DNA from: a bacterium
GTDB taxonomy: Bacteria > Actinomycetota > Acidimicrobiia > Spongiisociales > Spongiisociaceae
Assembly: GCA_028820935.1 (NCBI GenBank)
Contig: JAPPHZ010000024.1
Location: 1-42,179, forward strand
DNA: 42,179 nt
Direction of reading: 5' to 3'
Positions 39,249-41,717 of this stretch are shown here, in pieces. Under the pieces are notes generated by a model. That model did no database searches, had not been told where the DNA came from, and saw only the letters and a program-made list of their open reading frames with translations. Position 1 is the first letter of the stretch. Each line of letters begins with the position of its first letter. Made by a program: the position numbers and the translations under genes.

Positions 39249-40247
39249 ATGACAACCAAGACCACACAGAGCGCACCCGGACGGGCAGACCGGAAGGGCA
39301 TCTCGGTTCTCGAACTGTTCGACATGTTCCCCACCGAGCAGGCTGCCCGTGACTGGTTCGAGTCGATCCGCTGGCCCAACGGCGTAGACGCGTGCCCACG
39401 GTGCGGAACTGTCGGTGAGGTATCGCCGGTTACCTCCGGCAAGCCTATGCCCTACCGATGCGGCGCCTGCCGCAAGTACTTCTCCGTTCGTACCGGAACG
39501 GTCATGGAATCTTCCCGCTTGCCGATCCGCAAGTGGGTTATCGCCCTGTACCTGTGCTCAACGAACCTCAAAGGCGTGTCCAGCATGAAACTACACCGCG
39601 ACCTGGACGTGACTCAGAAGACCGCCTGGTTCATGCTCGGGCGTATCCGGGAAGCCTGGGTGGACGCTGCCGACGTGGTGCTGGATGGCACGGTGGAGGT
39701 TGACGAGACCTACATCGGCGGCAAAGAGAAGAATAAGCACCAGTCGAAGCGTCTGAACGCCGGGCGGGGCGCTGTGGGTAAGGCTGTGGTAGTTGGCGGT
39801 CGGTCACGCGACGGGCGGGTCACTGCTGCCGTCGTAGACGACACGACACGGGCCACGCTTCACGGGTTCATCCACGATCACGTACAGGCCGGATCACGAG
39901 TGTTCACCGACGGTGCCGACGCCTACCACGGAGTAGGCGAAGGCCGCGACCTTGACCACGAAGCGGTGAAGCACACGGTCGGTGAGTACGTGCGGGGTGA
40001 GGTTCACACCAACGGCATGGAGTCGTTCTGGTCCATGCTCAAGCGGGGCTACTACGGCACCTACCACAAGATGAGCTTCAAGCACCTACGCCGCTACGTT
40101 GCCGAGTTCGCCGCCCGCCACAACGTGCGGAACTTCGACACGTTGGATCAGATGGCCGCGCTCGCGAAGGGCATGGAAGGGAAGCGGCTCATGTACCGGG
40201 ACCTCATCGCAGGCGAACAGGTGTGCGGACCACGACCAGCCTCCTGA
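39249..40247 (+). CDS. IS1595-family (ISXO2-like) transposase
   Basis: This 332-residue transposase has an N-terminal zinc ribbon with Cys49, Cys52, Cys71 and Cys74, the linker region SSRLPIRKWVIALYL, and an ISXO2-like catalytic domain: Asp152 (VDETYIGG), Asp221 (TDGADAY) and the third site HTNGMESFWSMLKRGYYGTYHKMS-type region with Asn255 and Glu258. Length and motifs are those of an intact enzyme. I could not find terminal inverted repeats or a target duplication in the flanks, so either the ends are diverged or farther out, or the element is no longer mobile. Its own strong promoter suggests that it is expressed. Confidence 0.9.
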   Translation: MTTKTTQSAPGRADRKGISVLELFDMFPTEQAARDWFESIRWPNGVDACPRCGTVGEVSPVTSGKPMPYRCGACRKYFSVRTGTVMESSRLPIRKWVIALYLCSTNLKGVSSMKLHRDLDVTQKTAWFMLGRIREAWVDAADVVLDGTVEVDETYIGGKEKNKHQSKRLNAGRGAVGKAVVVGGRSRDGRVTAAVVDDTTRATLHGFIHDHVQAGSRVFTDGADAYHGVGEGRDLDHEAVKHTVGEYVRGEVHTNGMESFWSMLKRGYYGTYHKMSFKHLRRYVAEFAARHNVRNFDTLDQMAALAKGMEGKRLMYRDLIAGEQVCGPRPAS

Positions 40248-40905: not shown

Positions 40906-41316
40906 TCAGACGGAGAAGGTGAAGCGGCCCGCGAAGTCCATCGTTAGTACCCCCTTACAGAGGATGTCTCGACCGATCAGCACGTCGTAATGAGGGGAGC
41001 CAGCCTCAAAGGAAGCCGCCCGGTGGTCCGGGATTCCGATGTGCTGTGTTCCGAACTGCAGCAAGAGATCAACGAGGTATTGGTTAACGGCGTCGGAACC
41101 GGTAGCTCCTACCATTGGTACCTTGCCGGTTGACTGCAAGTCTAGGAAGTCCGCAACCTTGTTAGAGATGCAGGTCACGTCGGCGCCGGTGTCGACGAGG
41201 CCTGAGAACACTCTGGCTTCACCTTCCGACTGCTGCTCGAACGTCCCGCCAGGTAGGACAGCCACTTGGAGCAGGATACCTACGGTCGGGTCGTACTCGC
41301 CGCTAAGACACGGCAT
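40906..41316 (-). CDS. Retropepsin-like aspartic protease
   Basis: This single-domain aspartic protease of 136 residues has the active-site motif VDTGADVTCIS (Asp42-Thr-Gly-Ala) and, near the C-terminus, the hydrophobic-hydrophobic-Gly motif DVLIGRDIL (111-119), both features of retroviral-type pepsins. Half-size enzymes of this kind must dimerise to make an active site. No signal peptide, transmembrane helix, reverse transcriptase or integrase is nearby, so it is a cellular bacterial protein and not part of a retroelement. It overlaps the preceding 84-residue gene by 14 nt and is the last gene of the operon. The substrate is unknown. Confidence 0.8.
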   Translation of the reverse strand: MPCLSGEYDPTVGILLQVAVLPGGTFEQQSEGEARVFSGLVDTGADVTCISNKVADFLDLQSTGKVPMVGATGSDAVNQYLVDLLLQFGTQHIGIPDHRAASFEAGSPHYDVLIGRDILCKGVLTMDFAGRFTFSV

Positions 41317-41557
41317 GGGAGAACCACCCTAGATCCACAGGACGAGCGGTGATCTCCTGTACCGAGAAACAGGTCTCTGGATAGAGCTTGACCCCAGCCA
41401 GATGAGCATCCCGCACAGTGTCAAACACGGCGGTGAGGGTGCCGTCGTGAAGGAGCGCCCACTTGTTAGCGTGAGTCGCATTCAGGCTGGGGAGCAAAGC
41501 TTTGAAAGCCTCATAGTTGCGGTCCACTTCCGCCTGGGCTGCTTGCTGAGCTGCCAT
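41303..41557 (-). CDS. 84-residue partner protein of the retropepsin-like protease
   Basis: This small cytoplasmic protein begins with an Ala/Gln-rich helix and contains NYEAFKALLPSLN, WALLHDGTLTAVFDT, DAHLAGVKLY and a C-terminal FSVQEI...PVDLGWFSHAV block. From memory, similar short proteins with this ending occur in many bacteria beside retropepsin-like genes, but their function is not known to me. The ATG at 41557 has AGGGGA in front; the longer frame back to 41839 is not used because a separate small gene lies there. The C-terminus overlaps the protease start, which suggests complex formation or use as substrate or regulator (inference). Confidence 0.75.
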   Translation of the reverse strand: MAAQQAAQAEVDRNYEAFKALLPSLNATHANKWALLHDGTLTAVFDTVRDAHLAGVKLYPETCFSVQEITARPVDLGWFSHAVS

Positions 41558-41558
41558 T

Positions 41559-41717
41559 CTAAGCTTCCCCTCTAGGCCCAAGGAACTTCTCCGTCTGATC
41601 GGCTTGAATGAACATGGCGCGGGCGAGGTCCTGTGGGCTCCGCGGTTCCCGTACCTGCTCAAGACGCCGTTTCGCGCGTTTGGTGGTCTTGCGGGTGTGT
41701 TTCTGGCGCGTGTCCAT
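41559..41717 (-). CDS. 52-residue basic protein, first gene of the retropepsin operon
   Basis: This very short gene encodes 52 residues. The N-terminal half is strongly basic (RQKHTRKTTKRAKRRLEQVR), and the rest contains PQDLARAMFIQADQTEKFLG. A strong ribosome site, AGGGGAGAAGG, precedes the ATG, and the TAG lies 1 nt before the ATG of the 84-residue protein, so it is clearly within the operon. I do not recognise a family. A basic N-terminus could bind nucleic acid or be processed by the neighbouring protease, but both are guesses. Confidence 0.6.
   Translation of the reverse strand: MDTRQKHTRKTTKRAKRRLEQVREPRSPQDLARAMFIQADQTEKFLGPRGEA

Follow-up and report, generated by a model that had tools for sequence, protein, structure and literature searches.

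Our analyses identified, in an uncultured actinobacterium, a two-gene arrangement in which a retropepsin-like aspartic protease is encoded directly downstream of, and overlapping with, an 84-residue protein of divergent DUF5678 type. Both proteins are real and conserved, as are their order and a protease start codon nested in the partner gene; the protease retains its fold and an intact catalytic motif, and the spread of the pair is patchy. The protease and the 84-residue protein probably work as one mobile unit. We see about an even chance that this DUF5678–retropepsin unit has coupled synthesis, contains a protease controlled by the bound partner and moves between bacteria and phages.

Results

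Locus layout

The window, by which we mean the whole stretch of 42,179 nt analyzed here, is an entire contig, and its end 462 bp upstream of the 52-residue ORF limits reading on that side. Three ORFs lie on the minus strand at the place given in the first-pass annotation, with a gap of 1 nt between the 52- and 84-residue genes and an overlap of 14 nt (41303–41316) between the 84-residue and protease genes. The features are as follows:

41559–41717, minus strand: ORF of a 52-residue basic protein, member of a separate leader-gene family and judged to lie outside the protease unit
41303–41557, minus strand: ORF of the 84-residue partner, classed as divergent DUF5678 type from its L043 and L045 relatives, AF2 model and fold match; precedes the protease in several phyla
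40906–41316, minus strand: ORF of a 136-residue retropepsin-like aspartic protease, by Pfam gathering scores, PDB profile matches and AF2 model
41303–41316, minus strand: nested protease start (ATG) within the codons for S-H-A at the end of the partner gene, at 43-nt spacing from a conserved Gln codon

All three kinds of genes are under purifying selection where relatives allow the test and do not reflect chance. In pairs of relatives, dN/dS ranged from 0.09 to 0.39 for partners and from 0.12 to 0.20 for proteases; the 52-residue ORF is likewise real, with a dN/dS of 0.18 against its L064 homolog.

Family, fold and catalytic motif of the protease

Judged by motif, family profile and predicted fold, the window protease is a genuine single-domain retropepsin (clan AA, A2-like). 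It carries DTGA at residues 42–45, with D42 as catalytic residue, and a C-terminal IGRD at residues 114–117. Three Pfam models scored it above their gathering thresholds: gag-asp_proteas (30.6, threshold 28.2), Asp_protease_2 (27.8, threshold 24.3) and RVP (24.2, threshold 20.7). A profile built from the protease and its relatives matched the RVP domain of Ddi1 in the PDB (E 1.4e-6) and also HIV-, HTLV- and FIV-type proteases. The AF2 model (pLDDT 91.1) found its best PDB fold match in APRc (5C9F; Z 13.1, rmsd 2.0, 115 residues), and HIV-type proteases matched with Z about 11. Pfam scores and predicted fold bear out the half-size aspartic protease with DTGA and IGRD motifs described in the first-pass annotation. 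The NCBIfam model TIGR02281 for clan AA DTGA proteases gave 15.4 bits and missed its curated cut-off of 57.95, and neither the protease nor the 84-residue partner had a family in PHROGs. A single DTG per chain implies that the active protease would be a homodimer.

Loss of Asp42 in close relatives, envisaged in the first-pass annotation as counterevidence, is not what we found, as the catalytic Asp is retained in every aligned protease relative except that of L027. This paired protease (L027:753–1187, minus strand) reads HTG for DTG and is possibly inactive, or the change is a sequencing error. The motif of the L097 protease is DNG. Another paired protease (L010:3–548, minus strand) carries a C-terminal CPCGSGKKY that resembles the SEC-C metal-binding motif.

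A search for reverse transcriptase (RVT_1) found none in the 3.3-Mb genome assembly, and the same search was positive in three of 14 control genomes. Within the limits of the assembly, the earlier statement that no retroelement surrounds the gene is correct, and we rejected a retroelement protease or an origin from a nearby retroelement on these grounds.

Pairing across phyla and on viral contigs

In 59 related genomes, the protease occurs at five other places, each with a relative of the 84-residue protein directly upstream. When genome and viral contigs were searched with a profile of the protease alone, 13 loci emerged, from which L040 and L042 were excluded as they hold query sequences, leaving 11 new contigs (by length and position, L002 and L040 are judged to be one contig; L041 shares its contig with L006). 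The partner lies immediately upstream in 10 of these 11, which belong to Actinomycetota, Pseudomonadota, Bacteroidota and viral contigs. Cellular pairs were found in Cellvibrionales (L038), Rhodobacteraceae (L039), L041, Cyclobacteriaceae (L043), Sphingopyxis (L044) and Rhodospirillales (L045), viral ones on L033, L034, L035 and L037. The exception is viral contig L036 (3040–3555), where a retropepsin-like gene without recognizable partner stands among likely phage structural genes. Protease homologs that never co-occur with the small proteins, the other outcome held to speak against a pairing, are not what was seen for the 84-residue protein. The contig scans relied on the closer subsets A6 and A7, since the sequences in alignments A4 and A5 were too diverse for this purpose, and A7 gave no matches in viral contigs; plasmid and annotated phage records gave no tblastn match.

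In 398 Pseudomonadota genomes, all four strong new protease matches (E < 1e-19) were paired, with partner HMM E-values of 1e-14 or better, whereas none of the 27 weaker retropepsins inspected (E about 1e-10 to 1e-5; 25 plus two, with L096 among them near a contig end) had one. The pairing therefore marks the window-type protease subfamily and not retropepsins at large.

Searching with the partner only, we found 12 places in the window's family, with the protease downstream in 10 (frameshifted in L006); the remaining two, L026 and L032, are decayed remnants. The Pfam DUF5678 model found 17 loci in 198 Actinomycetota genomes, and at 12 of them a D(S/T)G protease-like ORF comes next downstream, L059 and L062 sharing one such ORF within this count. 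When eight of these downstream ORFs were scanned, seven matched Pfam aspartyl-protease models (E < 0.01), two of them above the gathering score. There are also DUF5678 genes that lack an accompanying protease. Among 249 Pseudomonadota genomes the same model recovered the L045 pair only, from which it follows that it misses most window-type partners.

The 84-residue partner and the nested start codon

The window's own 84-residue protein had no match to Pfam DUF5678 (PF18929) at E 1 and did not reach the gathering score. Its relatives in L045 and L043, in contrast, scored 28.9 and 27.9 against a cut-off of 23.2, and the L045 partner is 40% identical to that of the window. In a viral fold library, two pandoravirus proteins named DUF5678 ranked third and fifth for the window partner (E about 0.015, probability 1.0). 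Through these relatives and the modeled fold, the protein is classed as a divergent DUF5678 type. In its AF2 model (pLDDT 82.9), a helix is followed by a beta hairpin, a second helix and a strand. Among solved structures no relative was found by sequence, and the best structural matches reached E 1.8 with Foldseek and Z 3.7 with VIA-align. At L053:1462–1929, a DUF5678 domain appears, from our reading of the sequence, to be fused to a DNA-alkyltransferase-like domain. Small genes resembling ribbon-helix-helix (RHH) proteins lie just upstream of the DUF5678 genes in L046, L058 and L059, and one of these loci also has a PemK/MazF-like gene.

The C-terminal tail of the partner is predicted to be disordered (pLDDT about 41–54) yet is conserved as DLG-x-x-S-H-A. 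A G-rich, ribosome-binding-like stretch falls into its D-L-G codons, ahead of the protease start within the S-H-A codons; tail conservation can in part be attributed to these two elements. Counted from the first base of the conserved Gln codon in the partner gene, the distance to the protease start codon is exactly 43 nt in all 10 window-type pairs, and the partner's stop ends 14, 20, 26, 32 or 47 nt past the protease start, a range of 33 nt. The sequences of L097 and L098 read with the same arrangement. The fixed 43-nt spacing argues for conserved translational coupling, which would then operate in the cell. In a second subtype of pairs (L037, L042, L043), the genes instead abut or overlap by 0–8 nt, and the DLG-x-x-S-H-A tail is missing.

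The 52-residue gene

The 52-residue gene is a separate leader gene with changing company and not part of the protease system. Its family (41559–41717; L064–L069, L071–L075) consists of small, basic proteins with a conserved PRSxxDLARAxF motif, and relatives were found in seven of 149 genomes, all within the window's own bacterial family. Members sit tightly before differing downstream genes; as far as the sequences can be read, these are a Cas2/SinR-like-looking gene in L064, L065, L066 and L073 and a 150-residue membrane-protein-like gene in L067 and L071. Upstream of 32 other DUF5678-type genes no homolog was found. This absence at other pairs, together with the unrelated downstream genes in sister genomes, led us to reject the protein as a component of the system. 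Close to the operon of the window is an IS1595-type transposase (39249–40247, plus strand), and a transposase end similar to it precedes the 52-residue homolog in L064 (1226–1417).

Distribution and gene neighborhoods

In the two phyla sampled, only about 1% of genomes have strong protease matches, which vary within one genus and are also found on viral contigs. The window protease resembles those of viral contig L033 (44%) and Pseudomonadota L038 and L039 (39–41%) more closely than that of L040 from its own genus (32%). The tree mixes phyla: Bacteroidota L043 groups with Pseudomonadota L099 and L100 (support 100/99), and deeper forks are unsupported. Distances among partners track those among proteases (r 0.76, Mantel p 2e-4), as is expected of any co-inherited neighbors.

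Type I restriction-modification genes lie near the pairs of L039, L041 and L043. The L038 pair has an N6-methylase-like gene, SocA/Panacea and nucleotidyltransferase genes as neighbors, the L037 pair has ABC-3C/DUF2326, and the L034 and L037 pairs have genes for a phage tail tape measure or connector nearby. The L044 pair, from our own reading, looks flanked by core genes. The patchy spread and these neighbors, which come from inspection of individual loci, suggest mobile accessory cargo that perhaps serves phage–host conflict.

The B components of PADLOC PDC-M08 and PDC-M52 look related to aspartic proteases, with weak matches to the protease only. For PDC-M08, a match to both components was not obtained, as the weak matches were to PDC-M08B only. 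No partner matches any PADLOC model, and the partner was accordingly rejected as a PADLOC component.

Discussion

To our knowledge, a partner or purpose is known for few bacterial retropepsins. Retropepsin-like proteases themselves are already known in bacteria; our literature search found no paper on the function of DUF5678 or describing the DUF5678–retropepsin pair. APRc (RC1339) of Rickettsia conorii is a retropepsin-like protease with PDB structures 5C9F and 5C9B (PMC4140852). The window model shares its single-domain fold and has it as best PDB match, although both proteins are 12% identical in the aligned region. RimB of Pseudomonas fluorescens is a retropepsin-like protein of ribosome modification with RimK and RimA as partners (PMC11957791), and RloA of P. 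aeruginosa, with the transglutaminase-like RloB and the ATP-grasp protein RloC, is linked to osmotic stress (PMC12239564). Both are, like the window protease, bacterial retropepsin-like proteases working with other gene products; however, the partner families differ, and the RloA paper mentions no DUF5678. The likeness of our partner to DUF5678 lies in the L043 and L045 scores, the fold match and the frequent position of DUF5678 loci ahead of a retropepsin-like ORF, whereas the window's own protein stays without a match at E 1.

We may thus propose that the DUF5678-type protein is translated first and that ribosomes then start the retropepsin at the codon nested in the last codons of its partner, such that both would be made together. 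A single active site would arise from two paired protease chains. Binding and control of the protease by the partner are probable, and the partner might either keep it inactive or present substrates to it. A trigger, perhaps an event in phage–host conflict, would then release the protease. A bolder extension would make DUF5678 a large class of dedicated retropepsin control proteins and the nested-start pairs a new protease-based kind of phage–host conflict system, also carried by phages, which we put forward tentatively and would sooner doubt than accept.

Control by binding has a special case in which the pair resembles a toxin–antitoxin system, the protease being a growth-inhibiting toxin that is freed when the DUF5678 protein, as antitoxin, is lost under stress or phage attack. 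The small size and coupling of the genes, in which the partner takes the first position, the patchy spread, the RHH-like genes of L046, L058 and L059, and the decayed loci L006/L041 and L026, in which the protease is lost or broken while the partner remains, are all in agreement with this, but no partner matches a Pfam antitoxin family or a PADLOC model, and we consider it unlikely. To the same degree we would not expect a housekeeping or stress-response protease with an adaptor and no role in conflict. The characterized retropepsins RimB (PMC11957791) and RloA (PMC12239564), with their roles in ribosome modification and osmotic stress, set a precedent for it; strong matches in only about 1% of sampled genomes, their variation within one genus and their presence on viral contigs do not fit such a role well.

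The partner could also be a dedicated substrate whose flexible C-terminal tail is cut by the protease, with release or inactivation of the partner as a result. A tail that is predicted to be disordered and still conserved would suit this, but the nested start and the ribosome-binding-like stretch explain much of the conservation, and the L037/L042/L043 subtype manages without the tail, which makes cleavage somewhat less probable again than either of the former two. The first-pass annotation had proposed a protease operon of three genes, two of them for small dedicated partners. Its 84-residue half stands, as this gene precedes the protease across phyla and on viral contigs and shares the nested start with it. 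The 52-residue half was not supported: this gene is real and lies 1 nt from the partner gene, but its homologs were found at no other pair and precede other genes elsewhere, so that the three-gene version appears highly improbable.

With the two-gene DUF5678–retropepsin unit, a conserved and coupled partner offers a function class for DUF5678, a Pfam family without known function. With just two proteins, the pair may also be a compact model for experiments on how cells restrain a retropepsin or aim it.
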